Part shown: piece after piece, positions 14,101 to 50,380 of the stretch
How the letters are laid out: each line of letters opens with the position of its first letter
How positions within the stretch are numbered: the stretch's first letter is position 1
Origin: Deuterostichococcus epilithicus
Taxonomy: Eukaryota; Chlorophyta; Trebouxiophyceae; Prasiolales; Stichococcaceae
Direction of reading: 5' to 3'
Assembly: GCA_033439295.1 (NCBI GenBank)
Contig: JAVTLE010000016.1
Coordinates: forward strand, 2,170,001-2,234,000
Length of the DNA: 64,000 nt
Made by a program: the position numbers and the translations under genes
The notes under the pieces: model-generated
The model's input: the letters and a program-made list of their open reading frames with translations, nothing else
The model's database searches: none
Told to the model about the DNA's origin: nothing

Positions 14101-14763
14101 ACGAACCCAGCCGCTTTGGCTAGTCGCCTGAGCAGCAGCTGTGCCTGCCACCGCCAACGGCTGGAATGACTGCTCACCCGCTGCCTCTGCAGGCTTTGGC
14201 TGCGGGCCGTTTTGCAGCGTCGGCTCCGCTGCTGCAGGCTGGGGCGGCTGAGGAGGTGCGTTCGTCGCTTGTGCCCCCTGTTGCAATCCGCCTGCAGCCG
14301 GCACATGCTGCTGCTGCTGCTGCTGCGGCTGCAGCTGTGCTTCCGGCTGCGCTTCCGGCTGCGGCTCCAGCGGCAGCGCCCGCTTAGCTGCGCGCGGAAC
14401 GTGTGCCTCTGCGGCAGGGCGGTCCGGCACGGCCGAGGCTTGTGGCAGTGCTGCAGGCGGCTGGTGTGCAGCTGCATGTTCTGCGGCATCTGACTGGGCG
14501 GCTGCGGGAGTCGCTGCCGCCACCACCTTTGGGCATGAGTTGCACGCGGCAGGAGGCGCGCTCGGCTGCGCTGACGTGAACCCCTGACCCGCCGTCGGCT
14601 GCAGGGAAAGTTCAGCGCCTGACAGACTCTGCGCTGTGCTCCGCTGCGCTTCCGCGGACGCCACGGCGGGTTCTGGCGCCGGTGAACCCGGTGATGCTGC
14701 GCCATAATGCAGGGCGGGTGCGTCCGCAGAGGCCGTCCCATCCACTGATTTATCGCCAGGCAT
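8120..14763 (-). CDS. Large Gln/Pro/Ala-rich protein with two B3-like domains
   Basis: Starts at 14763 with a 600-residue low-complexity region (a six-Gln run, YPNAAYPAGPAAYTAAQ), followed near 12.8-12.1 kb by two GRLPPWSAAAAFA repeats. B3-like domain 1 is split over 11936-11718 (PELRVRLEGGPAPGAPLVMP; EWRCMLQ) and 11235-11105 (FIQDGWQGAAAALDALAGDT). The exon from 10882 carries an acidic patch (FGDLFGGFDSDAEE) and a basic patch (ARRRAGGIAKRRRSG). B3-like domain 2 starts at VTVCVKVASTQQFVIPAPL (about 9.5 kb) and continues at SSRGWRSLAMSLGLQPGSMI (about 8.75 kb). The tail is exon 8509-8313 plus exon 8210-8120 (WSSMRDILKDDY, then TAG). Likely nuclear DNA-binding by domain inference. Oddities: an N at 9663 sits where the frame changes, and an in-frame TAG at 8528-8530 separates domain 2 from the tail. 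Confidence 0.6.
9663..9663. other. Ambiguous base inside coding sequence
   Basis: Single N in the minus-strand B3-like gene. The frame with acidic and basic domain patches is coherent above it; the frame leading into B3-like domain 2 is coherent below it, and the two differ. A miscounted homopolymer or short repeat at the N would explain this. Confidence 0.7.
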
Positions 14764-24597: not shown

Positions 24598-27500
24598 TCA
24601 GCACGTCCAGCCGCGGCAGAAGGGCGAAAAGCAGAGGCACTCCTTCATGCCCCTCATGCGGCGGGCCTCCGCCGCGCTGATGCGTTCCATGTCCCGCTCC
24701 ACCTGGTAGTCGATCACCAGTTCTTCACCCTCGTGCACGCGCCGCGTGGTCATGAACAGCAGCCGCGGCGGCGCGCCTGGGTCCAGAGACACTGGCCACG
24801 ACACCATGTTGCTGCCGCTGCACGAGTGGTTGAGGAACCTGCGCAGGAGCACGCTATCTGAAGGCTGCTGCAGTGCATCTGTGACAGCAAGCACCAACGA
24901 GGCAGCCATGTCAACGACCGAGCTGCTTGGCACTGACAGAGTCAACGTGTTTCGATCATTGCATGGCACCTTCTGAACTGCGCAATGGTGTGCGGTTTCA
25001 ATGCTGCCCGATCCAACCCCGAGCATGCATCTACAGTTGTTCCTGAAGTCCCTGCCACGGCATTGCAAGGTCTAGAGGATGACCGGCACCTGCTGATGTT
25101 GCCCAAGTGACGGGCATCAAGGGCGGTCTTGTCGCCGCCGGCCGCCGCGACGCCCGCTGCGTCGCCGCCGCCTGGTCCATCGTGACCCTTCAGCATCTGC
25201 ATGTAGCAGCGCGGCTCCCGCGCTGCGGCTGCCGCAGCCTCGCGGCTCTTGCGTTCCGCGTCCGTCAGCAGCTCTCCTGCACATGGAAACCATCTTGCTT
25301 GATTGCAACTCAGCTATGCCCAGTCTTCTACCCCTTCAGCTGCCAAAGTCGTGGTTTCAGACTCACGGCGTCATCACAATGTGCACTTTAGCAGTGCAGA
25401 TCTTCGGGAAACAACTTCGCACCAGCCCGGTGCTTCTGTGCCAACTTCTTCAGGCAGCAGGCGCACTTGAGATGCACGAGACCCGTCCAGAGAGTCTTTG
25501 CTTACCTACGAACTCAAACACGTAGACCCCTGCAGGCAGCGGCTCCAGCGCAAACACGCCGGCGCCGATGGGCGCCCGGTCGCCGTTACACAGGCCCACC
25601 CACACATTGTACTGACAGCCATATGCCAGCACCGCTAGGGGGCTGCCGCGCTGCGGCGGCTCCATCTCTGCCGCCGCCGTCGCTGGCGCCGCTGCCGCCG
25701 CCGCTCCGCCGTAAAGCACCAGGCTTGCCAGCGTGTTGATGCGCGCCGACTTGTACCGCCAGCTGGGGAACAAGAGACCCAGCTCCAGATACACGCGCGG
25801 CTCCGGGTTGTCAGCAGCAGCCAGCGCAGCCTCAGTCGGCAGCACAGGGGCGGCTGCACACAGCATGTGGCCGAAGGTTGGCGGGCTTCGCAAGTCCCCT
25901 GGGTCTGCAAAAGCAGCAAGCCGCTTCCGAAGCAACTGTGCAGTATGCCCTCGCAAGCGTCCAGCACTGCAGAAGAGCATCTGTGCATAATGCGTCCTCT
26001 TGATTGAAGAGGGATGGCTGCTGTCTGGAGGTTGAGGGACGCTTGGTGTGCCAGTCACACCTTCGTTGCGGACTGCGGCTGCGAGTGCTTCCGCCTGGTC
26101 GAGGCTGTTGAGTGGCATGCCCGGGTCGACGACTTGCCCTGTGCATTGCGACAGCACGAGAGCTCGTCTGGCATCTTGAGCATGAGCCAATTTACATGGC
26201 AAGTGATCAGCTGGCGGCATGCAGCGATGGGGCTCGGCAGGAGGCTTGCACATCCATGTAAGCTGACTCATGGGCCACAGATACCACCACTGGTAGGACA
26301 GTCAAAGCAGAAGCACCTGCTGAGGAGCCCTGCTGCATCGCGGCATCTGCTCCAGCGGCAGCGCTCCCTGGGGCTGCAGGGGCCGGAGGCTCCGGCGCTG
26401 GCTGCGGCGGCAGCTGTGCCAGTTTACCGTCCGACGCCCGCCCCCTGCTTCTCCCTCGGACTTCCGGCGGCCTGCAGACAAATTTTGACCGGTCCAGCTC
26501 TCGCGAATACGCAGCTCTGGAAAACATGCCCTTCCACTAGCAAGGAAGTCCCACCGGTTTTTCTTTCGTGTAACGTTGCCACACGAAGCACAGCCAGGGA
26601 ACACCGAGTCGGACTCGGCATCTTCTGGCATAGCAGTGGTGATTGCGTTACGAGAGCAGGCCCAAAGGAGAGTTGCAGGCTCAGGCTTACCTGCAGGGCG
26701 GAGCATCGCTGCCAGCTGACTGATGTGCATCCTGCGGCAGGGCGGCATAGACGCCGGCGCTGTCCGCCAGCAGTGCCGCCAGCTCGCGGCTCAGGCGCTG
26801 CCGCTTGGCGGGCGGCTTCGGCCATGCCTGAGGCACCACAGCAGTCGCATCAGCGGTGTGGTGCGAGACTGATGAGGTACTTGACACCGTTGAAAACTGG
26901 TATGCCAGAGAGGACTCGAATAGGGTGCCCCTCTCCCCTCTTTACTTTTCGAGGCGCCTGATGATGCACCACAGAGTTCTGCAATCCGAAGTGATCAGGC
27001 TGGTTCTGCACAGCTGGGGTACAGGACGGCACCTGAGACCGCTGCGCCCGCTTGCTGCTGCGTGACTGGCTGGCCGCTGTGAACCTGCCAGAGGCTGACC
27101 TCTGCTTTGCCGCCGGGCTGCTGGCATCAGAGGGACCGGCGGCAGCTGCCCCGCCGCCAGGCTTCCGCGGCGGAGGCTGCAGCGGTCCCGCGACTGTGCC
27201 GCTAGCCCTGCCGCCTGCCCTGACTGGACCGGACCTGCTTGCGTCGGCCGCGACCGCCGTCGGCGCTACTGCTGTTGTGGCTGACGTCCTCGGGGCTGCA
27301 GAGCTGCCGAGCCGGCAGCTGTGCTGTGCGGTCCTCTCTGCCAGCATGCGTGAGCCAGGATGCCCTGCAAGAGGCACGTTGGTTGTAGCATCAGCCATTA
27401 GACTCTTGAGATGACAAGGAGAGGCAGTCAGGCTTCGATCTTCCACATATGCAGAGCCAACTCACTGATCCGCGATTGCAATTGGGCATTGAAGTAAAGA

Positions 27501-30500
27501 TCTGCCGAACGAACAGGAGAAACACTCTGAATTGCAGACTAGGAAAAGAGCGCGAGCAGATTTGCACCGTTGACTGCCCAGATGCAGGTCGGTGCTGGTG
27601 TCCATGCGCGTCACCGCCAGGATGTTGCCGGGCCCCACGTCGAGCGCGGTGGCCAGCCTGCGCCAGTCTGCAGGCCGCACCGCGCCGCTGCCGGGCTCAA
27701 AGCGCATCAGAACCGCCAGCTCGCTGCCGCCGCCGTCTGCCGCCCACTTGGGGAGCAGAACCCGGCAGCGCGCCGGCCATGTCGTCGTCGCCGGCGATGC
27801 CGCCGCCGCTGCCGGCGACCTCGTGTCTGGCGGCGGGTACAGCAGCCGCATGAGACAGGGCGGCAGCTCCAGCGCCGCCTCGTCCCGCACCACGATGCAG
27901 GCGGTCACAGAGCCGGTGACGTGCGTCTGCGCTGGCGGCTGCCTCCGCCCGCCGCCGGCGCCGCCACGCCGCCGCTTGCCGGCGGACGCCACCGCCGCCT
28001 CCGGTCTGCCGGCGCCCGGGGCCTGCCCGGCCGCGGCTGCCGCCGCCGCTGCTTGCGCCGCCGTAGCAGTGCGCGCGATGTGCACTCGGCCCGGGGCGGC
28101 AAGGTTGCTGCGCAGACGTATTGTGTCACCCGCCTCCAGGCTCAGGGCCGACCACACCGCTGCCCAGCCGCCCTGGAGCACGGCGCTGCGGCGGCCGGGG
28201 CGCTGCTCCAGGCTCAATTCAAACTCGCGGCGCTGCGGGCTGTCGGCCACGAGCGTGAGCCGCGGCGGTGGTGGCGCGTCGCCGAGCAGCCGCTTTGCTG
28301 CGGGCGGGGGAACGCGCAGGCGTCGCCGGTCGCCGCTGCTGATGTCTAGATAGACGGTCCTCAGCCTCGGTGTCGTCTGCAAGTTCGAAATGTTTCCATG
28401 AGGTGAATGCACATTGGCTGGCAGCAAAGGGCAGGAGGACTCTGCCTACCAGACATGCACGCCTGGCTACATATGACTGTCACCGCTGGCAGCCAGCCTG
28501 GGGTGAGCGCATGTTGTGCACAAGCGAAATGGTGCCAGGTCAGAAACCCCACGAAGCCTTGTCTGAATGCAAGCAGATGTAGCAGCCGATTCACCACCGC
28601 TGATTCAGCATCCAGAGCATGCCTGTCACCGGGAGGCTGTCACCTCCCGGGCAGTGCTATGGGTGTCACATGGGTGCACGCCTCTACTCCTGTTGCCTGC
28701 AGCAAGGGTCACCTGAGAGGCAGACAGCTTAGCAATGTGCAGCATGTCGCGGGCGGCGCCTGTTGTCAGCCGGATGCGATCGCCAGCCTGCCATGCACAT
28801 AAGACATGCTTCAAGGTCGCAAGACAGCAGGAGACTCCTGAGGTCCGTCACCACGACAAGCAGCACAGCACTAATCCACTTGCACAGCGCGAAGATGTCC
28901 CAAGCGAGGCGTGCAAGTTTGCCAGATAGGCTTCCAGACAGGGACAAGAGGCCAGGTTGCAGTTGGGCTCGCGACTGTGGCGTGAGGCACGGTGCATGAG
29001 CATGCCTGTAGGTCGAGAGCTCGACGCAGCGCCGGCCAGCCCTTGTGGAGCCGCAGTCCGCCATTGCGGACGACATTGCTGATACAGTAGGGCGGGTCGC
29101 TGCAGCCTTCCGCCGTGAGGTGCAGCTGCTGGAGGTCGGCCCCCCCGCCAAACAGCTGCGCGGCGGCGGTGGCGGGGATGTACCCATAAGTCTTGACCCA
29201 GCCGCCGAGCAGCACAGTTGCGCTGACCGGCTCCGCAGGCCCGTCCTGTGGGGAGAGACCGGGCAATCAGAAGGTATCTTCCGAGGCTAGCGAAGATGAG
29301 CAGTCTTGCCTGCCGGCAATGTGCATCAGGTGAGAGGCGTTGAGACTTCAGGGTTTGGGGTTCAGGATTTAATTCACGGCTCGCCCCCTCAGCCGTGATC
29401 CAACACGGTGATTCAACACGGATCCGACGCCCTCTGTGCCCGGGCCATGCTGCGGCTGAGCAAGATGGCACAGGAAGTCCTGTAGCCTGCGGCAGTGTGC
29501 ACGTGACGGAATCCACGCCTGACCTGGGCCTTCCGTACATGGTGGACACTGATCTCAACCTCTCCCGCAGCGTCCGCAGCGTCAGCAGCTGTGGCCCGTC
29601 CTGAGCTCGGCGCTGACGGCAGCGCCACCTCCGCCGCCGCCGCCTCTGCAGTTGCCTCTATGGCCGCCGCTGCCTCTGCTTCGGCTTCTGCCGCTGCTGC
29701 CTGTGCAGCTGCCTGTGCCGCCGCCGCCGCCGCCGCCGCTGCAGCCTCTGCCTGCGCCGCCTCGGTTGCTGCTGCCTCTGCCGCCACCTCCATTGCAGCT
29801 GCCTCTGCCGTTGCCTCTGACGCCGCTGCTCGTGCAGCTGCCTCTGCCGCCACCTGCGATGCTGCTGCCTCGGTCGCCGCAGCCTCGGTCGCCGCTACCT
29901 CTGCCTGCGCCACCTCTGCGGCTGCTGTCTCTGCCGCTGCCTCTGCCGCCGCCGTCTCTGCTGCCCCTGCCGCTGACAGCTTGGCGATTGACACGCGCCC
30001 GGTCGCCAGGTCACCTGTCAGCTGCACCTCGTTGCCAGGCCGCAAGTCGAGCACCCGCCACAGGAGTGGCCAGCCGCGAGTGGCGATGACGCTCCCTGGG
30101 CTGGTCTGGGGGTGGCTGCAGCCGACTTCAAGTTCCAGGTCGAGATCTGTAGCGGTAAAGACCACTGTGGCGGGCAGCGGCCTAACGCCCAGCAGCTGCA
30201 TTGTCGCGGGTACAGGAATGAGCAGATAGCCAGAGCTGTTGTTCAGTGTGACAGCCACGCTGGGCAGACCGCCAGGGGACACCTGTGCAGGCACCAGAGC
30301 AAAATTTTGTTGAGCAAACAGTGCGTCACAAGGCAAGGCACAATCGAATCGGATGCAGAACAGCAGACCACACACCGGCTGTGACAGCAAAGGGACAATG
30401 CCGCTATGACTGCTATGCCGTGACAACGGATTAGTACTCCAGGGAAGGTTCGATTGCTGAGCACTGAGGTGGCTCACCCGGCTCCGGGCCTGCCGCCGCC

Positions 30501-33422
30501 ATGGATCACCACAGGCTGCCCTGGCCGCAGCCTTCATCGCTGCCTGTCTCGCCACTTTGGCCGCCGCTGCTGCTGCACCCTCCAGCTGTTTGGCCGTCCT
30601 CTCGCGCTTGCGGCGCAGCGAGCGAGTGCCAGTGGCAGCAGACCACGGCAGCTCGGCACCAGTCGATGGTGCTGCTGCCACTGCTGCCTCTTCTTGCGCC
30701 GCCTGTGCCGCTGCTGCCTCCGTCGCCGCCTCCGCTGCCTCACGCGTCGCCAGCTTGGCAATTGACACGCGCCCCGTCGCCAAGTCACCTGTCAGCTGCA
30801 CCTGATTGCCAGGCTGCAGGTGCAGCGCCCGCTGCAACAGTCGCCAGCCGCGAATAGCGCTGACACTGAGGCTCTTGGAGCGGTGGCTGCAGCCGACATC
30901 AAACTCCAGGCCGAGATCTGTGGATGTGAAGACCACTGTGGCGGGCAGCGGCCGGATGCCCAGCAGCTGAGCTGTCTCGGGTGCAGGAATGAGCAGGCAT
31001 TGGGCGATACTTCTGTTGAGTGTGATGACTGCGCTGGGCACACCGCCGGACGCCTGCATGGGCGTCACAGCAATTCCGTCAACAGCCACCATGTCGCTTG
31101 CGGGCAAGCGCTATTGGGTTGGATGCAGCAGGGGACGCAGCAAGATCTCGTGTCAGGGTATGACGGCAGAGGGAGACACTGGAGAACGGATTGCAGCACG
31201 ACGACAGCACATTTGATTCCCATGCAGTCTTAAGTGCTCAATACGAAGGAGGAAGGAACGCAGCGATTCAGGAGCGAGAATACTCACCCGGGTGGCGGCC
31301 TGCCAGTGTGCGCCACGGGCTGCCTTGTCCACAGCGCGTGCCGCCTGTTCCACCACTTTGGCCGCCGCTGCTGATGCCCCCTCCAGCTGCTTGACCGTCC
31401 TCTGGCGCTTGCGGCGCGGCGAGCGAGTGAGGGAAGCAATAGGTCCTGGCAGCTGGGCACCTGTCGGCGCCGCTGCTGCCCTGCGTGGCTGCACAGGCGC
31501 CTCTGTGGTCTTGCGCTTGCGCGACAGCGGCTCAGCAGCTGCCAGGTTGACAATGTCGCCGATGCTGCCTGCGGCGCTGCCGCCACCGCCGTCGCCGCCA
31601 CCGCCGTCGCCGTCGCTGCTACCGCCGGCGCTGCCTCCGCCGCCGCTGCCGCCGCTGCTGCCGCCATCGTCTACGGCAGGGCGCCCACGGCCGGTGACCC
31701 AGGTGCGGATGTCGCAGCAGCCGGCGGCGCTCTTCTTCGTTGTCTGCCGCTTGGCAGGGGAGCCACCGAAAGGCATGTGCATGTCCTGGCAGCGCCGCTC
31801 CGGGCTCAGGAACGCCCTGGCGGCCACTGACGGCCCCGCCTGTGCGCGAGCGGCCAGAGAGATCTTGGCAAAACACAAACAGATCACAGGGTGCATGTAG
31901 TTCCTCCAAAAAGCGAAGTTCGTGTTGCCTTGGCGCTTGACCAGGCTGCAATACAATGCAACACCACAGCTGTCATGCCGCGTGCTGGCAACGCCACACA
32001 TGCCAGGCGCGACCACATGACACCAACTCCCATGTGCTGCTAGCACATGCACCACCTGCTGGACGATGTCGGCGTCTCCTGGTGCGCCTGTCGGCCCTGC
32101 TGCGTCCGCCTCAGCCGCTGCAGGCTCATGTGCATCCGCCGCTGGTGTCATCGCCCCGCAACCAGCCCGCGCCGCTGTGCCGCCTGCTTCTGGGCCCGCA
32201 CGCGTGAGCCCCGCCTCGGCATCTCGCAGTGCTATGTCGAGTCCCGCTTGGGGGGCCTGCCGCGCCGCCGCTGCGATTGCCGGGTTGTCATCCGGCGCTG
32301 GCGCTGCTGTCTCATCTGACGCGCCGCTGTGGGCTTGCGCCGCCTTTGGCCCGGCTGCCACCGCCACAGGCACCGCCTCGGTGTGTGCTTCAGAAGCCGC
32401 TGCACCCTGCCCTGAGCCGCCGGGCGCTGCGGTGTGCTCCGCCTGGTCGGCCGGATCCGCGGCTGCTCTTGGACAGGCTGCTTCCGGTCCCATGCTGGCG
32501 CCCGCTCCTGCCTCGGCACCGGCAGGGTGCTCGACAGCGGATGTGCGTGCCAAGTCTGGCGTTGCTTCCGGATCGCACGACAGAGTGCTGGCAGCGCTGC
32601 CGGAGCTGGCAGGCGCTGCAGCCGCCGTCACCACCACCGCTGCTTCTGCTGCCACTTCGCCTGCTGCAGCCGGCTCACACGACTGTGTACACGCGGTGTC
32701 GGCCTGCAAACCCCGGATTTGTGATCAGGAAGGCCTGCTTGGCAATGCTCATGCAGACACTGCGACTCACGATTAGCACATCTGGGCAGGTGCACGACTG
32801 CAACGCATCTGCTCTTAGAGTTCAAAGTGCAAGCCGCTCTGCATCTGTGGGACATTTGGCAGTGGGGAGGGGTCTGCATCGCCGCACGCACCTTTTGTAG
32901 ACTCTGCAGAGATTGCCAGAAGCACATTTGCCGCTGGCGTTGTGCCGCCATTTGGTCGCCCGGTGCAGGGTTGCATTGCGCAGCGCTTGGCTGCTTGCTG
33001 CACATGCCGCTGTCGCCGGCGCCAGTCCCTTCAGCCGGCATGCTATCGGGTTCACCCTCTTCGTTGCTGTGGCCTCTGCTGTCACCGCTCATGCAACCAG
33101 CGCTAGACTGCGATGTATGCTTGCCCGCCGCCGGCACTGCCGCTGCCGCCAACAATGCCAGTGACTTGGGACCCAATGGCACGGCGGCTGCCGGCTCCGG
33201 CCTGCCTGCGCCCTCGGCAGCGGCTGGTATGGAGGCTACTTCGGCTTTTGGTAGGCTGACGGCCTCCTCTTCGGTTTGGTTGGTCGCCAGTTCAGCTGCT
33301 GCCGCCGCTGCCTCCGCGGCATGCGGTCCTGGTGTGTGGCCTTCTAATACGGTCTGGCTACGGAGGTCATCAATTCGCCTCAAAATTCGCTCCATCACAC
33401 CGCCGGCCGTCGCCTCCTCCAT
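24598..33422 (-). CDS. B3-repeat / SET-domain fusion protein (putative lysine methyltransferase)
   Basis: Exons with consistent phase 0 joins: 33422-32892 (helical start MERILRRIDDLRSQTV), 32703-32056, 31839-31288 (module AGPSVAARAFLSPERR to GCCDIRTWVTG, then RKRQRTVKQLEG), 31053-30478, 30282-29524, 29245-29006, 28787-28713, 28376 to about 27570, less certain exons over 27.45-26.2 kb (NLS-like KPPAKRQRLS), up to 25506, then 25276-25090 and 24838-24598. Five B3-like repeats: LLIPAPETAQLLGI with GWRLLQRALHLQPGNQVQL; LLIPVPATMQLLGV with GWPLLWRVLDLRPGNEVQL; GYIPATAAAQLFGG with GWPALRRALDLQ-AGDRIRL; LRVPPPAAKRLLG with GWAAVWSALSLEAGDTIRL; RVLLPKWAADG with DWRRLATALDVGPGNILAV. The SET core reads GAGVFALEPLPAGVYVFEFV, GELLTDAERK, ALDARHLGNISRFLNHSC, GEELVIDY and a C-rich tail CLCFSPFCRGWTC, so the catalytic signatures are present. 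Expected role: nuclear DNA-targeted histone or protein lysine methylation. Confidence 0.75.
29600..29960 (-). repeat. Ala/Glu-rich helical linker in the B3-SET gene
   Basis: Between the second and third B3-like repeats, about 115 residues consist almost wholly of Ala, Glu, Thr and Gln (for example AAEVAQAEVAATEAAATEAA). This predicts a long helix or a low-complexity spacer. The opposite strand is also open here for 212 codons as a consequence of the codon bias. Confidence 0.6.
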
Positions 33423-34370: not shown

Positions 34371-37300
34371 CTACGCTGCCGCTGCTGACGCCGCGGTTCT
34401 GGCCGCCATGGATCTTGCAGACGAGCCGGCCATCCTCGCATCTGCAAACTTTGTGTGGCGAGGCGGCACGACAGCAGCGCGTGGGCCTGCTGTCATTGCT
34501 GCTGCCATGTGCGCCTCCTCTGCCTCTGACACCACGGTCACCGGCGGCACCATGGTCGGCAGGCCGGCCGGCGCAGGCGCCGGGGCCGCCACGCCCATTG
34601 CTACTGCACACACCGAACAGGGGATGCTTCAGAGGAGATGTCATGCTACCGACAAGGCTGGCTGTGCCAGGTCGTGCAGTGCGTGAGTCTCGTGAGCATG
34701 TTGCTGCTGCATTGCTGGGAAGAAGGCGTGCATATGCAGTGCTGGCTGCGGCATGAGGCTGCTGAAGTAGAGCCTGAACCACTACACCCGGGACTCCTGT
34801 GGCGCTGAGGGGTAGGAAATTCGTTCGTACGCACCTTCAGTCGGCTCGCCCTGGGCATCCACTAGCTGCTGCTCGAGGGCGGCTGTGCAGGGGCGCCCGG
34901 CGGCGATGGCGAGGGCCTCGGCGCAGACCAGGGCGCTGGGGTGCAGCTCGAATGCAAAGATATGCATATTCGCGAATTGCGCAGGCACCAGCACCTTGGT
35001 CCAGATCGCGTGCACCGTCTGCGTACAAGGATGCGGACCACACATCAGACACGAGGGCTGGGGCACGCTTGAGCCTGAGGCAGTAAGGTGGAAGGGCACA
35101 ACATGTACCTGAGGCAGTAAGGTGGGAGGGCATACCATGTCCCCGAGGCAGTAAGGTGGGAGGGCACAATATGTCTCTGCAGAACATGAGGCACAGCACC
35201 AACAAAACGTCCAGACTGCTAAGCAGACATTATCGTGACAGGAGGCCTTCCTTTGCCCTTTCAACCGCCCCCTGGGATGCACCGGCGCGACCGGCGCCAA
35301 TCGGCACAGGCATTGTGCGAGGTGCTCGCTGACTTCGCATGGCAGCCAGGTATGAATCGTACCTGCAGAAAGCAGCTATGCTGCTGGATCAGCGTCTCCC
35401 GGATGTCGCCCAGGACCTCCGCCAGTCCGTCCACTGCAAATGTGACATCGCCAGCAGCAGCGTCGGCATCGGCGTCGGAAATCTGCACGGGCGCCGCCAC
35501 CTGCGGCAGCAGCAACAAGGTGTCAGGCGGTGGATTGACACAGGAGCTCTGTCGCCGTCGAGGTTTCAAACATTTTCACAAGCTTCAAGATTGCTTGCTT
35601 TTGCCCGGCTGCCGTCATATCAATTGCTCTGCTGCTGGTCCCGGATCAGGGGCACGATTGCACCAGCGACAGAGCAACCTGCCATTGCAACAGACAGGTG
35701 GCTGAGTTCAACTGTAATACTGGAGAACCGCACGAGAGCGACACCTGCGGCAGGGTTGCTTCCAGCGCGCGCCGCTGCGCAGCCAGCCCGCACGTGCTAG
35801 ACAGGTGCTCATCCCGCAGTCCGATGATGGTCGCCTGCTGGTGGGGGCTGAGTCCGGCACTCTCGATCACCTGTGCCGAAGCCGAGTAGCAGTGAACGAG
35901 CGCTGCCATAGGCGCTGCCGACAGGCCCTGGGCTGCAGCATGGTTGCGATCGGCAACGCTCTGCACTTGGCAGGTGGATAAGTGCAGAATCCCGGCAAGC
36001 AGCACCGCTTTTGAGCTGGTTTCAGTGGTGTTGTTTTCTGAATGAGCTATCAACGGGGGCTGCTGATCCAGGCTGCACCTTCCACCAGAAGTCGTCAGGC
36101 TGGTTGCCGTCGACTGCTGCCGCCGCCTCCGCAGAGTCGGCGCTGGGCGCCTGCTCAGCAGCCGCCGCCTCGCGGGCTGGGCTCGCCACCAGCACCGCCA
36201 TCTTCAGGTGGATGTGCTCGGACACCAGCTTTTCCTGCGTTCGGTGCAGCCGCCCACCTTCGCAAATGCTAAACATGCTGATGCACTTGACGCCACCACC
36301 CCCGTCAGCTGCAAGTGTGCAGTCACCCTTGCTGCTGCAGCGGAGGTGGCGCAGAAGCAGCCACAAACCACGGCACAGCTGTATTTGCACGCCCCTGCCG
36401 TATGCGCTTCTGTCTGACCGGCGGCCCTCTGCAGGCTGGCCAAGTGGTGCGCGCCAAGGAGGGAACGAGTCAGGGACTCACCAGACGCGAGGCAGTCGCA
36501 CTGTTGCCGCCTGTGCCTGCAGCGCCACCGCCACAGCCGCCGGCGTGCAGCAGGTACAGGCAGCTGGCCATCGCTTCGGTGTACTCGCGCCACAGAGCCG
36601 TCAGCTCCTGCTGCGGGGATGCCGCCAGCTGCAACACAAGCGGGCGGCTGATTGCGATTGATCACGACAGTGCAATGGGCACCTCGAGCGTGCGGAACCT
36701 GGCGCAAGACAGTTGTGGAGCCTGGCACAGCCTAGCAAGGTCATGCAAGGCAAGGAGGGTTGTATGGCTGGCACATCCCTCGAAACTCTTTGCGAAACTT
36801 CCGCTGGCAGTCAGGAGCGTCTGCCAGGCAGCAGGGTGTTGCAGAGCGGCAATAAGGGCACCTGTGCACAGCTGGCGACAAGTGGTTCGCCTGGGCGCAC
36901 AGAGATGACCAGCTCCGTTGGCAGCCCCAGCTCTGCTACCAGACGGTCCTGCAACATGTCCACCCAATCGCAGCTTCAGGCACACGCAGTGGCTGCGAAG
37001 GGCTGGATTTGCGGCTGGCACTCAATTGCACAGTGCTGCTCGCAGCGTGCTGTTCAATACTGCTGATCACAGGGTGCAATCTCAACCTAGATCCCCTTGG
37101 CACAATGCAATTGACCAACGCCGGCACATCAGCAGCAAAGGAGGGGTTGCGCGTCGGCCATTGGGCCAGGGAGATTTGGGTGAGGCAGGCATTTGAAGAA
37201 GCAGCAGCTCTGCAGCCGATCTTGTGTGGACAACCAGAACACCCAAATACCCTAGACAGCAAAGTGCAGGGTACTTCATTTAGCCAGCCTGTGGACTGAC

Positions 37301-38949
37301 CTGCGCCGCCGCATCGAGCCACCAGGCGACGTCTGGCGGCACGCCGCCGGCGACGCGCATCGCCCGCTGCTCTCGCGCCAGCAGGGGCGTTACCCGCGCC
37401 ACGGCGAGCGCCTGCGACATCGCCTGCTGCCCCGGCACCGCCTCCGTCGCCGACGCCAGACGCTCCAGCACCGTGTTGCGGCTCCTCAGCACTTTCTGCG
37501 TAGTTACAAGTGCACATGAACCTTTAAATGTGCCTGAATTTTTGGCATTCGCTGGCATGGGTGGTCTGGAGGCAGCCAGCCGGCCTGCATCGGAAATGCC
37601 TGTCTGGCGAACATGCATCAGCTTGCAGACCGACTCGAAAGTCACCCGATCATGCAATCGGCACTCACAATTGCCAATCTTGTTTGCTGCAGCTGCTTCT
37701 CCAGCTCGCCACTCTCGCCAGCAGCCTGCCGCTCCCGCTCCTGTGACATGACGGGGTGTGAGCATGAGCCGATGAATGTCCCAGCGCATCACACGCAGTC
37801 CGTCAGCAACGTGCAAACTGGTCACACCTGTCGGCGCCGCCGGGCAAAGACTGCTGTGCAACTCCGCTACCAAGCTCACTGATGGCACACCAGCTGCGGT
37901 GATCAAAGCTACGCTCATACAGGGTTTAGGGTTTGGCACACACAGCGCACCTTGCGCCGGTCACGCCACCGCTGCTGCGCGGCCCGATTCGCCTCCCGCT
38001 TGTGGACCAGCCGTTGTGCCTTCACAGGTCGGCAGGCGCGGCTGCCTCTGCCGCCGCCGCTGCTACCGCCACCGCCGCTTTCGCGGCCGACGGGCTGACT
38101 GCTCGCCGGCTGGGCTGCCGCCTGCGCATGAGTAATAGTGCACTGTTGCACAGTACATGTGCAGCCCGGATAGCAATCCGACTCACGCGAAGGCGATGAG
38201 GCTGCCACAAGCGCATCAGCAGAAGGGCGGAGTGTGCACACCGACGCCAGTTGCAGGGATGAGGCGTTGGGCAGGATGGCCGCGCCGCAGGTGTCCCTCC
38301 AAGCGCCAGCCTGGCGGCAGTCGGCGACGCTGCCGCCTGCGCAGGTGCTGTCGCTCTCGCCAAGCTGCGGCCGCGTGCATTTCGTCGAGAAGAGCCGGTG
38401 CGGTGGCCCAGGCTCTGCCACCGCCTGCTGGGGCTGCAGTGCCGCAGCATACGCTGCCGGCTCGCCGCCAACCATGACCATGGTACCCCCACAGCTGTCA
38501 ATAGAGTTGCTGCGGAAGGCGCGTGCGGCCGTATCTGTGCCACCGGACGTGCCGCTCCATACCAGAGTCCCATGCACGCCGGGGCTTAGGTGTGCCACCA
38601 TGCTGTCCGAGATGCCGGACTCTGTCGGGCTTGCACTGACCTACGGTGCACATGCCAGCGGTCGTTCACTGCGCTGCATCATAGCAATGAGCGAGCTAGT
38701 TTGTCTGATCGCCTTTAAAGGCTGCGACCATGCCTGCCAAGGACGGTCGCACATGTCCACGCGGTTCGTAGTACGTCCGCCTTGTACTTATATGCTGCTT
38801 GTGGGGCTTACCAGGCCGAGGCAGCAGGCACTGGGCTCCAAGTTGAGGTTGCAGTTGCTGAGAGATACATCGTCCAGGCCGCCATCAGGTGGAAGGCGTG
38901 GGGTCCAGTCCGGCTGCAGCGCATCCCAGTCGATCGCACAGTCCTCCAT
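34371..38949 (-). CDS. bZIP transcription factor
   Basis: Eleven exons join in frame to 751 residues: 38949-38812, 38640-37951, 37740-37669, 37495-37301, 36948-36862, 36628-36482, 36234-36079, 35960-35745, 35500-35363, 35018-34835, 34603-34371 (TAG). The N-terminus is acidic (MEDCAIDWDALQPDW). The basic region at the end of exon 2 is VHKREANRAAQQRWRDRRK, matching N-x7-R. The zipper helix follows in the next two exons (GELEKQLQQTRLAI, VLRSRNTVLERLASATE). Downstream helices (SPQQELTALWREYTEAMASC; GLSPHQQATIIGLRDEHLSS) resemble the C-terminal regions of other chlorophyte bZIP proteins. It should bind DNA as a dimer in the nucleus; the target genes are unknown. Met 38949 was chosen because a GTAAGC donor ends its exon; an earlier in-frame ATG at 39048 is possible. 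A Trp in the basic region is unusual. Confidence 0.85.
35074..35175. repeat. 34-bp minisatellite, three tandem units
   Basis: Three consecutive 34-bp units (35074-35107, 35108-35141, 35142-35175), each containing gaggcagtaaggtggg with few substitutions. They lie in the intron between the bZIP exons 35500-35363 and 35018-34835. Each unit carries AGGTGGG, which resembles a splice donor on the plus strand but is in the antisense orientation to the gene. Confidence 0.85.
37921..37934 (+). repeat. Interstitial telomere-like motif
   Basis: Two partial units of the plant/algal TTTAGGG telomere repeat (agggtttagggttt) lie just inside an intron of the bZIP gene. Too short to imply a former chromosome end; it could be a telobox-like site. 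Confidence 0.4.
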
Positions 38950-40171
38950 CCCTGTACACGCAAGACCGCTCGGACCAACAGGTAACTGAAGTTTTGTATC
39001 ACCGAAACGGCTGCTGCGGGAACGTGAACGAGGTGGTGCAAGGGACACTGCAGACTGCCGAAGATCTTTCCCGACAGTATCTCTTGGTTGGGTACGACAA
39101 GGTCTGCGCTAACACGGGACGGCTGCAGCCCGGCGCACTGGCTTCATCACACGTCTCTTTCTGATCGTCCAAATTTTTATCAATGCATTGAGTGAATTGT
39201 TGCGGGTGTGCTTTCCAGAGAGAAACTTTTCAGAAATTTCCTTCTGTTTTTCTTGCGACCTTTTTCAGAGTGAAAAGTGGTTATGGCAATATGGAGACAG
39301 TAGCGCGCCATAAGGCGCGCAGCGTTTGCCCCTCTGACTCAACCCTCCTTTACTAAACACCGAGCATCTGAAAGCTTCTAATGGCTGGCTAAGGCCTTCC
39401 TGAGCGAGGGCAAGCGTCCACAGCAATGAGAAACTTACCACCGTCATGCAACCGTGAGACCACCGTCGCATGCCTCAAGGAGGGAGGGGCCCCCGACTCC
39501 TGACTTTGACATGGCATGCACCGAAGGTATCCATTGCAAAAGCCCACCGAGCACCTCGCGGCCGTGTTGCCGCCTCCTGCCGCCGCACCCTGCCGCCGCC
39601 GCGGCTGCCAGCCGCACATCACTCCGAAACCAGCTCCTCCTCAGCAACGGTGTTCTGCTCTGCATAGCACACCAGGCGGTGCTGGACCGCGACGACCGAC
39701 ATGCTGGCGTTGCCGCTTGCGGATCGCCGCACGAGCCTGCAGCAGGGGCGCGGCGGCGATCGGCAACTCCACAGCGCAGCAAGCGCAAGATCCGGCCTGA
39801 TGGCTCAGAAAGAGTGCGAGGCCTGTGATGCCCGCAGATGGTCACGCTCAACAAACGACCCTGGCAACGGTGAATCGCTGTGACCGGGGCGGGGGGTTTC
39901 CCTGCTGCAGTACTGCAAAGTCAGATTGGTCTGGCAGACTGGCGGCGACGCACAGGGTCCATACGTGCCCACCTGCTGACGTTGCCGGCGGCTCTGCAAT
40001 TGATCACCATGGGCCCGCCCTTCTCGCCGCTGCCGCTGCCATTGCCGACGCCGCCGCTTGAGCTGGAACCAGCCTCCGCCTGGCCGCCTGCCGCCGTGAC
40101 AGCGCCCGATTCCCCTCCAAGCAGCGACGCCGCCAGGCCGCCTGCCTGCGCGGCTTAGGCTCGCTGCATTT

Positions 40172-40420
40172 TTACCCCGAGCTGCGTCGCCGCCTCAGCG
40201 CTGCCGGCCGCAGCTGCCCGGCTGGCGCTTGCGCCCTGCTGTTGGCGCCGGCTGCCGCCGTGNCGGCGCCGGCACCCTGGCCCAGCTGATAAGCAACGGC
40301 CGGGACAGCAAAGCGTTTGGCATTTAACCACTGACAGGTGCCACCGTCGCTGCCAGTGAGGCGGGCCGGGGCTGCCGCCGGAGCCGCATGTGCAGGTTGC
40401 CGCAGCCAAAGTAGCGCGTC
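40172..40420 (-). CDS. Possible B3-like fragment
   Basis: An open minus-strand frame reads LTGSDGGTCQWLNAKRFAVP then AVAYQLGQGAGA, resembling the FVIPAPLMQ and LLIPVPATMQLLG strand blocks of the B3-like repeats nearby. It carries the N at 40263 and ends at TAA 40172-40174. No matching GW..L half was found, so this may be an exon of an unresolved gene or a relic. Confidence 0.2.
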   Translation of the reverse strand, partial: DALLWLRQPAHAAPAAAPARLTGSDGGTCQWLNAKRFAVPAVAYQLGQGAGAXTAAAGANSRAQAPAGQLRPAALRRRRSSG

Positions 40421-40510
40421 ACGGTGTCAGATGGTGGGAACGAAAAGAGAAAAGGTACAGTTCAGTGAGAAAAGTCACGACCTATCAGCGTGGAACTGCA
40501 AAACAACGGC

Positions 40511-40586
40511 CGACAAGTGGCCCGCATTGCGGCTCTGATGGATCTCGCCGACAAGTGGCCCGCATTGCGGCTCTGATGGATCTCGC
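40511..40586 (+). repeat. Perfect 38-bp tandem duplication
   Basis: Two identical adjacent 38-bp copies (40511-40548, 40549-40586) starting cgacaagtggcccgc. Non-coding context; probably a recent slip or an assembly duplication. Confidence 0.9.
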
Positions 40587-40874
40587 CACATGGAATGACC
40601 CCACCACCTCACTTACACGTCAGCACAAGCTGACAACCTTGACGCATCACCTGCCAGGTGATCAATGGCGTATTGGCAATTGCAAACTCCACCAGCAGTG
40701 CCGTGGAACACCGTCCACTACAGCTGCAACAGAGCTGCGCCAGCACAGGGCGTATAAGCCGCCGCATCAGGGCGGCCGGCCACTTTCAAGCTACGTCACA
40801 AGCCATGCGATGCGCGCCGCCAGCAGCCATGAGTGTGTCACTCCACCCTTGACAGGGACCTAGTCAGCGATGCC

Positions 40875-43800
40875 TCAAGGCAGACGCAGGTAGTCTCCAC
40901 GTGCCAATGGCCGCGTGCTCATGTACAACAGCCGCGGGTACTCATGATGGGGTACGAGATTTGCCGCAGCCCCGCAGCCTTGACGCACCAGCCTGTACAC
41001 ATCAAGCAAGCGCATGGCTGCATTACAAGCGTTACAGGACGATGCGCCTTGTCCACGCACCCTTGTCACACCACCAATTATCCGTGGTTGCCCACCTTTG
41101 GCTCGTCCCCTCGCTGACACACATCGGGCAGCGGCTGGGCGTCACTGATGCACTGCAATGCTGTTTCAGTCTTTCCGCTCACCGGCAAACGTTCGACGCT
41201 GCGCTGGTATCGGTGCCGCTGGGGACACGTCCCTGAACGCCTGCCGGCGGCGCGAGGGCATGCACATGGGTGTGCAGCGGCGAGGGGCGGTAATGGTAGA
41301 CACCTTTGGAAAAAGTCTGAAGCTCAGCGCCTGAAGGAGGAAGCTGCAGCTTAGCTTCATATATCCGCCAACAGGTTTGCAAGCACAGAACTGGGAGGCC
41401 CCTGCTGGATTGTCAAGCCGGGCAGCAGAGGGTCCGCTCCCTCATTTGCCTCCCGTCTGCCAGACTCGCAGCTGTATAAGGCAGAATGAGACAGTGCGTA
41501 CCCGTGCACTCGAAGAGGTATTTCGCCGCCGGCACGTCGGTGAGGGCCTGCACCTGCCACGCCCCGTCCGCCTCTTTGAATGCCCGCAGCTTGAACTGCA
41601 CTGCGTCCTGCACATGCGCAGGGTGCAGGTGCAAGCTGAGTCGGGTCCCGTGATGTCGGCTCCTACGTCAGGATGACTGCTCCGCAGAGCATCGGAAAAG
41701 CAGTCAGCGTCTCAATGTACCAGTTGGACATCATGGCGCGGTGCGCAGATCGGCTGTGCACACCGCCGCAGGGCACCCCGCCCGCCCCTGTGCTGGATTG
41801 CTCGCCTGGTGAGGTGCTCCCTGCTGCAGGCCGATCGAAGGGCCGCAGGCAGCATGCGCTGCGTTAGCTGCTGCATCTACGCCGCCAGAGCACCACTTCG
41901 GGCCTGGTGGTGGGAGGCGCTCACCCGCAGCAGGGCCTTTATGTTGCCCAGCGGCAGCGGCGCGACGTCCAGCCGCACGGTCATCTTCTCGCGCTCGCTA
42001 AAGCCCATCGCCTCCGTCGCATCGAGCAGCATTGAGGCCTGCGCACAACATGGACTGAGTTGGTAATGTCGTTCGATATAGGCCTGGTGCTGGACGGCAT
42101 CCTGCGCCGCTCCCAGATCGAGCCGGGAGAAACTGATTGCCATGTTTCCGGAACTGCAAATGCAACTTTCTGTCTAGGCAGCGTCAGGGGTTGCCTCCCT
42201 GATTCGACGATTGCTGCTCGCATGTGTAAGCGCAAAAGGGGCTCACCTTGTAGGGTAGACAAGGTCGCTCTGCAGGAGTACCCACCCGCCGTCTTCCACC
42301 GTGCGCCCCAGCTCCGCATTGCATGTCGGCAGCCGCCCACGGCCTGCATCGTGCAGGGCGATGGGCCACCATCAGACCAGCGTCCACAGCAGCGTCCCTT
42401 GCAAGCTGCATGCGACGCGCCGCATCAGCTTTGCAGCTTGGGAACTGAATGCAATAACAAAGGCTTAAGGGAATTGGAAGGCCAGCACAGGCGTTGTGAG
42501 GATGCAAGGCAGCCTTGTGCTGTGGCCGAGGCCGAGAGCCCACACGACACTGACCTGGGTCCTGTGGCGCTGCGTGCCATGTCTTGTAGCGCAGTGACTG
42601 CGGTGTCGCCACTGCTGCCGCCGCCCCCGCTCCTGCATTTGCACACGGCACATGTCTCAGACCTCTCGCAATGCGGGCATGCACTGCCATGCCAAATGGG
42701 CTGCGCACCGGATTGAGCGCGTCAGATCTCAACGGAGGGGCGGCAGTTGGGGCTGAATGCAGCGCTGACCCTGCGCTGACCCTCATCCGGGAGCTGATGC
42801 GTTGAGGCTCAAGGCTCCATGAGGAGCATGCAGGTGGTGAAGCAATTAGCATAACACATAGCGAGGGGGCAGCACAGGCCAGCAAGACCGCAATATGCAT
42901 GTTTGAGGTACCGGCCCATGTCTGCGGCCCACTGGCAGCTGAGCAGGCGCTGGCGGCAGACCTGGTGCCGCAGGTACAATGCCGACGCCAGCCGGCAGCG
43001 GCGCCGAGCGGAGCCGTGGCTGCTCTGGCAGGCGCAGTCGCCGCCGGCTGCGCCGTCGGAGTCGCCTGCCGTCACCCTGCCTCCGGCAGCGCCACTGTGG
43101 CCGCTTCGGCGCACACCGCGTGCGCCGGAGCCTGCTGCGGCGCCGCAGCTGCCCCCAGAGGCCTCAGGGCCGCTTCCTGCGGCAGCAGAACCGCCTGCTG
43201 CGCTGCTGCACCCTCCGGCACCATGCGGGCCGTTTCGGCTGGTGCAGCTGCCGCTGTTGCCCGCCCCGTCGCCGGGGCCGGTCTCTGCGACGGGGCTGGG
43301 CCCTCTGCGGCAGTTGTGGTGTCCGTCACCGAGATGAGCCGGCGCCGTTTGCTCCTGATCAGCAGCCCGGCACCGCCGCCGCCGCCGCCGCCGCCGCTGC
43401 CCTGGCCCGCTCCAGCTGCTGCTGCCGGAGCTTCACCTTGCCGCCTCTTACCCCGCCGCTGCTGCCCTGCTGCTGCATCACTGCCGGCCGCGGCCGCCGG
43501 AGTTGGCCGCCGGAACCCTGGTTGGCTGCGCATCGCTGCCCAGACCGGAGAGGTAGGCCCGGGCTGGCAACCAGCTGCGCTCGTGGATTGTGGCAGCTAG
43601 CGCGGTTGCGGCAGGGCTGTCGCTGACACGGCGCATGTGCAGGTCGTCGCTGCCTTCATGCCGCGAGAATGCCAGCACGCTGCGAAAGAGGAGCAGGCAT
43701 CGCATGGGTGCTGCGAGTCAAGACAGCCGCTCAGGCCGCGACCCGCTCAAGCCTATGGCGTATGCTGCCGTCGGCACGTCCAGCCTGATTAACGATGAAG

Positions 43801-46800
43801 GCTTGTCCATAGTTACTATGAATGAATTTCATGCCGCCAGTACAAGTTGGCCATGCGAGACACTTTCGGAAGTTGCCGGCACGCCTCACCTGCCGACCTG
43901 TGCGCTGAGCGCGCTGGCAATATCTCGCCAGCCGGCCCTGTACAGGAAGTAGGTGACGTCTGGGTTATTGAATTCCACCGGCACACGTATCCCGTCTGGC
44001 AGCACCACGTCAAACTGCGACAGACACACCTGCAGTCACACATGTGGCGGTTTGTGCCACCCCACGACCATGGAAAGACAAACAAACAAAGGCACTGCCA
44101 GACCTTACACCTGTCTGCAAAATAGCTGCGTGGCACAGCCTTCTCAAGCAGCAGCGCTGGCGGCTGGGCTGTATCTCGTTGGGATGGCTCACTGTGTTTC
44201 AGCCTGAAACATGTTGCGCCAACAAACAGCCTAAGCCCGTCTGTGTTTGTTCTCACAACACAGCAGCACGAGCAGTGGGAGCGTCACGAATGCCAGAATG
44301 AAGAAGTGTCATCTCACACAGCACTCCGCACCAGGCTGCTGAACGGCGTCCGCATCATATGGTGCATTAGGTGCAGCCACTTCATGTTGGCCACCGACAT
44401 GCACATGGTGACGCTGCCCGCTATGGTCAGCGGCGATGCCCGCGCCGCAGAGCGCCGTGGCGGCGCCTGCCGCGGAGGCGGCCGCGCCTGCCGTGGTGCT
44501 GCGCCCGCAGCGGTGCCGCCTGCGGCGACACCTGTCCCTGGGCTGTGCCCGCCGCCAGCCGCGAGCGCGGGCGCGGGCACGACGTCGAGGATTGGCCGCG
44601 TCTGGGCGCCGTCGGCCACTGACAGCTGCACATTCGACTCTTTCGGCAGGCGCCTGTGGTTCCGCACCTTGAATCAATGCCTGCATGTGTTACTCAATTT
44701 GAAATCATGAAAGCCGTTCCTGTCAGAAGCAGCTTGATCAGACATGGATCGACAGCTGCACACCAGGTTGGTGGGTGGGCATTGTGCTCTGCGGCTTCCT
44801 GCAAGAGTTTAGAGGCCTGGCGATCAGGAACTGAGCGCTGGGACGTGAGATGGAAGGTGGCTCATGAGCGAGTTTTGACAAGTACAGCCGGAAAGGGCGG
44901 CACCGCACCGGCGCGTCTGGTAGCAGCTGTTGTGGAACTCAATGTCGAATGTCTTGCCATCAGGGGTGCGCAAGGTGACGCTGGGGTAGCGGGGCCTGCT
45001 GAACATCTGCTTTGCATCCTCTGGTTTAACGTGCAGGAATTAGCTTCCCTTGCCCTTCGGTCTCTGCTCCCCGGCAACCCACACGCGGCCCTGCAAACGC
45101 GGATTGCGGTCACTGTAAAATCATTTCTTCCTTTCTCCGTGGAGTGCGGCCTCATCGTTGGCGCCACTAAAAGTGCTGCAGCTGCTTCGCATCATGACTG
45201 CTGCATGTCAGTTGCTGCCAAAGAGGTTTGACTGATGCAAACGCCCGGTACAAAACAGCAAAGTGCTGCACTGCCAGTCAAGACTGGGAAGGGATGGCTG
45301 TCATCTGTTGCACTTGAGGACCTCCTATGTGCAGCTGCATTCTGCCTGTACCTGCGCAGGTGCTGCGGCTGGCGCCGCAGGGGTTGCAGCCGACCGGCGC
45401 CCTGCCGCCGCCGGCTGCTCTGCCGCCACGGGCCCCGGGCGCCACGATCCGTCGCGGCCCGCTGCCGGCCTCCGGCCGGCGGCCCGCTGCCGGCCTCCGG
45501 CCGGCTGCCGCGCCCGGCAGGCCGGCGGCGCCGCCGCGCGAGCGCACGCTGCGGGGGCCGCCCCCGGCGNGCGGGCGCCGGGCCGCTCGCGCCGCCAGCC
45601 CCTGGCGCGTGCTTTACGTCAACACTCGGCGGCGTGCACCCGGCGTCACCCATGGACAGCAGCACCGACGCCTCCCGGGAGATGCCCAGCTGCGCGCGCG
45701 GTGCCAGTCATTGCGCTCGCTGGAACCAGTGGCGGATCAAGCGGTTGCGAAGCAGGGTGTGGAGGCTGCCTGGGCGTCCTGACTGTGCAGGCAAAGGCAT
45801 GATTAATTTTTATTCGGTAGACGAGAACACGCCATGGATTCTGGATTGTGCACAGGGCCCAAAGTTCCGATCACACCTGTATGACTGGAGCGACTCAATC
45901 CCCGGTCTGAAGCTGACGGGGAACCGGCTGCCGTCCGGGGTGCGGAGAGTGATACACTCTGGGTGCGGGCCGCCGCAGAGCAGCCGGGTGTCGGCCGCCG
46001 ACAACCTCAGGTAGCCGGTGCTCCGCTGCGTTGCAGTGAACGATTGGCGACCCTCCTGCGGTGCACTCCGCACTTCTGTTTTGGTAGCGTGTAAGAGACC
46101 TGGCAGCGCTGCACACGAACCTGATTGCACTGTTACTGATTGCTTTTACGGCCAGCCCCATTCAACTCCAGGTTGGGTCACTGCGGAGTTTGAACGCCCA
46201 GCCACAATGTGCACATCATCCCACCCACCGTCTTCTTTCCATACTGGCTGGACTGCCGCCGGAGGCTCGACAACGAAGGCTGGCGGCTCGCTGAGTAGGT
46301 CAGGGGACGCGCCTGCAAGTCCTGGTGCGGGTCTCTGCCTGCACTGCCAGCCGTCCGCGAATGTGCAGGTGCGGCGGCAGGCCTCGCAGGGGGCTCAGCC
46401 TATGCACTTGCAGCCGCCGCCTGCCGTTGCGGCGTGCCGCATGGCCACTCCTGGACGTTTCGACTGGCATCGGAATCGGCCCCGCTGCCACTTGACGGCC
46501 GACCAGAACCATCCTGTGTGTCCAAGCCTGAAGCAGGCCCCGCTGGCCGCCGCCTACTCGGCGGCAGCCGGCGTGCTGCAGCCGCGGAATCTGCATCTTC
46601 ATCGCCGGCGGGATCATAGTCTTCGTCGATGGAGCTACGTGTACTCGCAGAGAGCAGGCTGCTGCCCTCGGACTGCAGCAGCGATTGCCGCGGCTCTGGC
46701 TGCGTCGCCTGCCTCGGCACATCTGCCGGTGCCGCTGGCTGCTGCTGCACTGCCGCAGCGGCCGCCGCTGGGTTGGGCTGACGCGAGGGCCGCTGGAAAG

Positions 46801-46903
46801 CGGCGGGGCCCGCCGACGCATCGCTGGCAGGGTCAGCTGCCAAGCATGCCTCAGGGCTGCGGTGTGCGCCTGGGAGTGCCTGGAAGTGCACCATTGCAAT
46901 CAC
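40875..46903 (-). CDS. B3-like repeats with degenerate SET domain
   Basis: Starts near Met 46903 with an acidic/Pro-rich region (STRSSIDEDYDPAGDEDADS). B3-like blocks follow: exon 46025-45877 (GYLRLSAADTRLL; CITLRTPDGSRFPVSF), about 45.0-44.9 kb (VTLRTPDGKTFDIEFHNS), about 44.65 kb (NVQLSVADGAQTRPILDVV) and about 44.03-43.88 kb (FDVVLPDGIRVPVEFNNP; LYRAGWRDIASALSAQVG) continuing in the exon near 43.7 kb (SVLAFSRHEGSDDLHMRRVS). A basic patch is IRSKRRRLISVTD. A pre-SET segment (EKMTVRLDVAPLPLGNIKAL) lies near 42.0 kb. SET-like exons end at 41502 (FKLRAFKEADGAWQVQALTD; YLFECTG), 41330-41183 and 40992-40875. The NHSC motif is replaced by RQGC, the GEEL-DY motif by ARGDYLRLP, and there is no post-SET Cys cluster, so catalysis is unlikely. 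A TAA interrupts the second B3-like block, so it may be a pseudogene or a binding-only protein. Confidence 0.6.
45464..45515. repeat. GC-rich tandem/palindromic repeat
   Basis: The string gctgccggcctccggccgg occurs twice in tandem with a further partial copy, each unit self-complementary (ccggcc...ggccgg). It lies next to the N at 45570 and inside a region where the frame of the degenerate SET gene is hard to follow; a likely source of sequencing error. Confidence 0.7.
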
Positions 46904-47628
46904 TGTGTCCGAGATTTACCTTGCCTTCAGAAAAGTTCAATGGAAGTTTCCGATGCATTGACGGTTGCTTCAAAGGCTCCCCTGTGGACCCATGCAGGCG
47001 TGCAGCGCCAAGCTCTGCTCGACATGCTGTGAGCCGGCAGAGGAGGATGAGCCCCGTGGCTGTCACGCATGACCACCTTCGCATACAGCCTAAACCCACA
47101 GTTAGCTCAATCTGCGGCTCACGACGGCGCGTGGAAGGCTGCTTCATGGGCAGAGTCTGGTGCGCCGCACCTGCGAAGGTCCCGCTCCTTGACCAACGCG
47201 GCGCCTGACGGTTCTGGACTCATGTTCGCAGGTGTAGGCGCTCCGGACAGCTTGCGCAGGGTGCCGATACCGAGGCGATTTCCTGTATGCCCCAAACTGT
47301 GTAGCGATGAGGCTGCCTAAGAAGACCTTTGCGGAAATGGCTTTGGGGCAAGCATGATCGCTCTCTGGTAATGAAGAGGCACAGCAGGCTATCAAGGGCG
47401 TGTCTGAGTTTCCGAGCTCTGTCTCGAGCGCTGGTCCTGTGAAGAAACGTCACATGCCGGCACGTGGTTTTGAAGGTGCTCAGCATTTACCGGACAGCGA
47501 ACCATGCGACGTCGCATATACAAGAGTTTGGACCTTACCACACGCTGCACCTCCCGCTCTGTGCCAGCGCTGATGCTGCTGATTTGATTTTGCATGCATG
47601 CATGTAGGTCGCCCAACCGAGTGCAGCC
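46904..47628. promoter_or_regulatory. Divergent promoter region
   Basis: About 725 bp between the start of the degenerate SET gene and the first methyltransferase-like gene. ATATACAAG at 47516-47524 is a weak TATA candidate about 110 bp before ATG 47629. No gene is supported inside. Confidence 0.3.
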
Positions 47629-49983: not shown

Positions 49984-50380
49984 ACTGAGCAGAGAGGAAC
50001 CGACTGTGCTGCTGGGGTGGGGCTAACAGATAACAAATTTGTTGTGTCGTGGCCTAACAAACTTGCAACACAAAGATGGTGTTGCATGCCAGTTGGCTTC
50101 GTGATGACTACGACCCCGCCCCTTGTTAGGGTAATTGACTCAAATGATTGAATCGTACGGGCAGTCCTTTCGAGCCTCATCCATTACGATTTACTGACTG
50201 TCGATACTGCAAACGAAGCTCTGCTCTGTGCGCGAACATATCAAGCACATCCCGCTCGTGGCCTCACAGCCAGTCACGCGAACCTTTCTGCACCTGCTTG
50301 GAGATGGTGTGATGGCCACGCTGCAATCCTGATCAGCTGTACAGCTCAGGCCACCGAACATCTGATTTATCTGGACAGTA
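49984..50380. promoter_or_regulatory. Spacer between the twin genes
   Basis: About 400 bp holding the 3' end of copy 1 and the promoter of copy 2. Relatively AT-richer than the exons. No ORF of note, no clear TATA box. Confidence 0.35.

Follow-up and report, generated by a model that had tools for sequence, protein, structure and literature searches.

Gene model of the locus

The window analysed in this study is a stretch of 64,000 nt (C14:2170001-2234000) from a probably green-algal genome of 46.8 Mb in 21 contigs. Genes were predicted with a two-strand hidden Markov model that started from generic parameters and was self-trained on C14:2140001-2244000 (104 kb). This yielded 12 genes, among which a urea transporter that looks complete and a urea carboxylase of 26 exons were named from reading of the sequence. 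On the minus strand the gene finder placed one gene of 13 exons, with its ATG at 33422 and its stop at 24598 (window numbering), the same ends as those given in an earlier note on this DNA. Manual addition of a GC-AG intron brought the model to 14 exons, encoding 1842 aa and free of stop codons before the terminal one. The predicted product of 24598..33422 carries B3 repeats, basic linkers and a C-terminal SET domain, and the domains lie on the DNA in this order. Pfam analysis of the full protein detected B3 (E 1.8e-9) and SET (6e-16), while on open frames SET was found at 24601-25071 and B3 at 27465-28445.

The earlier note described phase 0 exon joins running through the repeat part, and indeed joins 1-7 of the refined model are all in phase 0; the later joins are in phases 2, 0, 2, 1, 1 and 2, with no break of frame. 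Coding potential was scored after training with the locus left out. Of the three frames on its own strand, the model frame scored highest in every one of the 14 exons, at -4.7 to +9.2 per 100 nt, and the 13 introns scored between -10.3 and -23.1 in their best frame. In exons 9 and 11 an antisense frame outscores the model frame. Linker exons 9-11 (26317..27303, minus strand) reached -0.3, +6.1 and +1.7 per 100 nt, compared with -10.3 or lower for the introns. The nuclear localization signal (NLS)-like patches mentioned in the same note were recovered as basic patches in the protein sequence encoded by exons 3, 4, 8, 9 and 10, and the linker stretches measured were strongly basic by charge count.

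B3-like repeats

Five B3-like repeats had been proposed for this gene, of which four were recovered with confidence, all on the minus strand: R1 (31050-30730), R2 (30276-29956), R3 (29242-29006 and 28787-28713) and R4 (28376-28053). They are mutually similar in all six pairs (E 7e-8 to 2e-43, BLASTP in a four-sequence comparison), with R1 being 69% identical to R2 and 33% to R4. For R1 and R2, dN was 0.20 and dS 0.43 (NG86), i.e., a dN/dS of ~0.47. When searched alone, R4 passed the Pfam B3 cut-off (E 3.4e-8), R1 gave a weak B3 match below it (E 0.31), and the individual Pfam searches of R2, R3 and R5 returned no B3 match. Both halves of R3 match the R1-R4 profile, at 1.3e-33 and 7e-9, with R3 itself included in that profile. 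R3 needs the GC-AG intron (29005-28788), whose junction was read from the sequence by eye; the gene finder with GC donors allowed ended the exon at 29033 instead and skipped the 75-nt R3 exon.

Structure prediction of the repeats is in agreement with a B3 fold for part of the array. The predicted structure of R2 adopts this fold, with a seven-stranded pseudobarrel and two helices, and that of R4 (block pLDDT 69-90) has its strands and helices in the same order as R2, while for R5 (AlphaFold) the block pLDDT means were 34-50. R5 (27929-27576, minus strand) scored against the R1-R4 profile at a level reached by 1 of 2000 shuffles, a test whose strength is overstated, here and for the paralogue and neighbour domains below, by the candidates having been picked beforehand by eye. 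Together with the domain of a neighbouring gene it aligned to a B3 alignment with an hhalign probability of 62 over 34 columns. Given these values, the lack of a Pfam match and the low pLDDT, we count four B3 repeats and one probable one.

Concerning the relationship to known B3 structures, a profile of eight domains from the local cluster matched TEM1 (6.4e-8), NGA1 (5.2e-7) and RAV1 (9.6e-7) in the PDB. Since R4 and two neighbour domains with Pfam B3 matches of their own contribute to this profile, narrower ones were also tested. With R1, R2, R4 and only the initial segment of R3 in the profile, the best PDB match was again TEM1, at E 0.051. R1-R3 without R4 aligned with a hhalign probability of 51 (E 1.6e-4, 28 columns) to an alignment of the RAV1, NGA1 and TEM1 PDB fragments plus one B3 match of this genome, and the SET domain, used as a control against the same alignment, gave 0.3. 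As a single sequence in phmmer, R4 had 26 PDB matches up to E 5, mostly Src/Fyn SH3 domains and none of them B3, so that a profile is needed to see the relationship. Searches for mobile counterparts gave no match for 75 aa of R2 among plasmids or for R1 among viral contigs; the SET domain gave one 24-residue match in the latter.

An alternative would be that the gene is a single fusion in which the B3 repeats are degenerate protein-protein or structural modules, recruitment being left to partners or to the basic linkers, and the SET domain methylating a histone or non-histone target without sequence guidance. The YWNSS stretch that precedes the TKGW motif in the RAV1, NGA1 and TEM1 fragments is absent from R1-R4. 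R1-R3 contain 9, 6 and 10 Lys+Arg, compared with 14, 14 and 13 in the RAV1, NGA1 and TEM1 fragments, and the net charge is -1 for R2 and 0 for R5. The weakness of R5 and the strongly basic linkers point in the same direction. However, R4, the most basic repeat (+9), is on a par with the RAV1 fragment (+8), R1 and R3 (+4 each) equal NGA1 (+4), R4 passes the Pfam cut-off and the fold appears to be kept in the predicted structures. We regard this alternative as improbable. Because R1-R4 lack YWNSS and R2 has a net charge of -1, not all repeats need read DNA. The absence of YWNSS also means that the repeats are not placed in the RAV/NGA/TEM group, and any specificity would differ from that of its members.

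The SET domain

The SET domain and its post-SET Cys cluster are encoded by exons 12-14 (24598..25853, minus strand). After splicing, the domain covers Pfam profile positions 1-105 of 105 (E 1.1e-17), and the motifs NISRFLNHSC, GEELVIDY and C-L-C-x4-C are all present, the last as CLCFSPFC at the C-terminus, in keeping with the post-SET pattern C-x-C-x4-C. The SET domain with NHSC, GEEL-DY and a Cys-rich end reported earlier is thus borne out. In phmmer against the PDB, 80 sequences matched at E <= 0.001, and among the best 60 of these 80 the first was EHMT2 (1.7e-13), followed by EHMT1, SUV39H2, Clr4, SETD2 and KMT2 chains. No match to pre-SET, SRA, AP2, CW, PHD or zinc-finger Pfam domains was found in the full protein up to E 1. 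By its sequence, the domain is a SET plus post-SET putative lysine methyltransferase with matches to several substrate classes, as EHMT, SUV39, SETD2 and KMT2 chains all match it.

One gene or two

A central question is whether the repeats and the SET domain belong to the same gene, as the earlier note assumed. The full model gave a probability above 0.999999 (forward algorithm) that the stretch from SET to R5 contains no intergenic state, and with the locus masked from training this value was 0.9989-0.9999 under three priors. The masked model also merges neighbours into a single gene at 21947-42032, its own best parse missing the ends at 24598 and 33422, and its one-gene call is thus a lenient one.

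A split can also be written down in full: a B3-array gene would run from 33422 to ~26687, its TAA stop overlapping the donor GTAAGC, and a short SET gene of ~262 aa would follow separately on the same strand (25866-24598, ATG at 25866). The fusion would then be an artefact of the gene model, although the adjacent genes could still cooperate. This parse is open throughout, and the phase pattern shifts after R5. Moreover, with the R1-R4 profile no B3 above chance was found around the cluster's remaining SET paralogues, L012 among them. The 463-nt gap at 25854..26316 (minus strand), which is intron 11 in our model and belongs to the gene boundary under the split, holds TGTAA at 26196, and the longest gap of L012 holds one too (67423, window numbering). 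In green algae TGTAA serves as the poly(A) signal. It was rejected here as evidence that a gene ends, since it is not enriched after predicted stops: it occurs less than 500 nt after the stop in 1 of 12 predicted genes, the B3-SET gene itself, with ~1.8 expected by chance.

As an end signal TGTAA is unreliable in this genome region. In four settings, a forced split cost 15.3, 13.4, 8.7 and 6.4 nats relative to one gene, and the resulting stop-to-start distance of ~820 nt is below that to the neighbours predicted on the same strand at either side (1111 and 948 nt). Linker exon 11 would sit inside intergenic space, and the L012 gap contains a further exon-like stretch. We thus consider it likely, on the basis of the gene models, that the B3 repeats and SET form one gene, with a single transcript predicted for both, while two adjacent genes are the less likely reading. 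The single-gene claim of the earlier note is therefore favoured by ab initio modelling, tempered by the coherence of the split parse and the over-merging of the masked predictor.

Local cluster and genome context

The locus sits among B3-like and SET genes that form a local cluster, a setting to which the earlier note does not refer. A six-frame Pfam scan of the whole genome revealed at least 16 SET and at least three B3 matches, one of the latter being the gene described here. The other two B3 matches are on contigs C5 and C19, for which the sole SET among the matches listed is on C5, at a distance of 1.5 Mb. Within ~91 kb, the strand of the B3-SET gene carries three further SET genes, at C14:2143907 (L009), window 53807-60403 and C14:2234704-2243825 (L012). 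The second of these (minus strand) belongs to the same family and shares an intron position, its 3' end having been misplaced by the gene finder. All three modelled genes (the B3-SET gene, L012 and the 54-kb gene) have a phase-1 intron following E(F/Y)(V/C), and the B3-SET gene and L012 also have a phase-2 intron just before NHSC (two of three, the model of the 54-kb gene being incomplete).

L012, ~31 kb from the B3-SET gene, has the same predicted order of B3-like domains followed by SET, with a one-gene probability of 0.91-0.999. Its B3-like domains are weak, the scores of domains A, B and C (again pre-picked by eye) being reached by 3, 1 and 19 shuffles, each of 2000. They had no Pfam B3 match and were not above chance in a six-frame scan with the R1-R4 profile. 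The exon-like stretch in its longest gap is ~30 codons long and bounded by AG and GT. The recurrence of the architecture in the L012 prediction and the sharing of both SET intron positions speak for the B3-SET reading.

Among the neighbours, two predicted genes carry B3-like domains, one at window 2459-7322 (plus strand; Pfam B3 4.7e-4, under the cut-off) and one at 8309-14763 (minus strand; 1.5e-6, under the cut-off), and they match each other at E 4e-5. Shuffle tests of the neighbour domains D, E and F, with the same pre-selection by eye, gave 0, 0 and 6, each of 2000. A predicted gene at 34371-46894 (minus strand) shows a domain resembling R5 and a basic stretch that is bZIP-like by eye. 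At 47454-53903 (plus strand) the predicted protein consists of two similar halves of ~260 aa each, and the part of it that was searched gave no convincing NCBIfam match. Elsewhere in the genome, three weak R4 matches (E 0.045, 0.081 and 0.19) fall within ~2 kb at C13:1389390-1391510, perhaps another B3-like array. Chlamydomonas and Volvox are reported to carry one B3 gene each (PMC2688026); a local cluster of B3-like genes would thus be unusual if this genome is that of a chlorophyte.

The weak B3 domains of the local relatives, along with a gene model that is ab initio only, could also suggest a decaying or pseudogene tandem array without function. Such a fate is hard to reconcile with 1842 open codons across 14 exons, intact catalytic motifs and the R1/R2 dN/dS given above, and we consider it very improbable.

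Relation to known proteins

Combining DNA recognition with a SET domain in one chain is not without precedent. In Arabidopsis, SUVR5 carries sequence-reading zinc fingers and SET in the same protein (PMC3469426). The candidate resembles it in having a putative DNA-binding part of a sequence-reading type and a C-terminal SET in one plant-lineage protein, with local histone marking as the expected outcome, while it differs in having B3 domains in place of three C2H2 zinc fingers, with no zinc-finger or pre-SET match up to E 1. By analogy, the B3-SET protein would probably act like SUVR5. A second comparison concerns VAL1/HSI2 and VAL2, B3 repressors that recruit the SET complex PRC2 in trans (PMC8948837); there B3 and SET reside in separate proteins, whereas the candidate joins them in a predicted single chain.

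Its SET domain has EHMT as best PDB match, and no other VAL-type domain was matched in it. VAL/HSI proteins combine B3 with CW and PHD-like domains, and for the CW zinc finger the full protein gave no match up to E 1. RAV, NGA and TEM proteins provide the best sequence-profile matches of the cluster's B3 domains in the PDB; the candidate differs from them by having no AP2 match, no YWNSS and several divergent B3 repeats with SET. With the SUV39/SUVH/SUVR group it shares the post-SET C-x-C-x4-C but shows no pre-SET or SRA match up to E 1. To our knowledge, none of the REM-family multi-B3 proteins, nor VRN1, carries SET. PRDM9 and SETMAR also unite a DNA-binding domain with SET in one chain, with zinc fingers or a transposase where the candidate has B3. 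No B3-SET fusion was found in the open-access literature searched and, within that literature, the statement of the earlier note that it knew of no described protein with several B3 repeats and SET holds. B3 and SET are each known; their combination would be new within the literature searched.

Proposed function

The reading that we favour, with a probability of roughly 0.55, is that of one nuclear B3-SET protein in which B3 domains, R4 above all, dock on DNA and the SET domain methylates nearby histones. In ~1842 aa it would comprise an N-terminus of low complexity followed by four to five B3 domains, basic linkers resembling nuclear-import signals and a C-terminal SET plus post-SET, with at least two of the B3 domains arising from duplication of a basic-linker plus B3 unit. 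R4, foremost among the repeats, would dock on DNA either sequence-specifically or via chromatin, and the remaining repeats may add affinity or bind partners. The tethered SET domain would then methylate lysine on nearby histones, bringing recruitment and catalysis together in one chain. We infer DNA binding, a histone substrate and a silencing role from these features, and the protein could reasonably be a self-contained DNA-targeted methyltransferase, as the earlier note suggested. More tentatively, and with a lower probability, the locus could represent an algal family of self-guided B3-SET lysine methyltransferases, clustered locally, in which varying B3 arrays give each enzyme a separate DNA address.

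If the two parts form one protein, this would be the first B3-SET fusion in the literature searched, and natural B3 recognition and histone methylation would be united in cis. It would do in one chain what VAL1 and PRC2 of land plants do in trans. As B3 proteins of land plants recruit a SET complex in trans, a fusion in cis would suggest that the link between B3 and SET evolved repeatedly or is old. The cluster makes it testable whether the B3 array sets where the mark goes.
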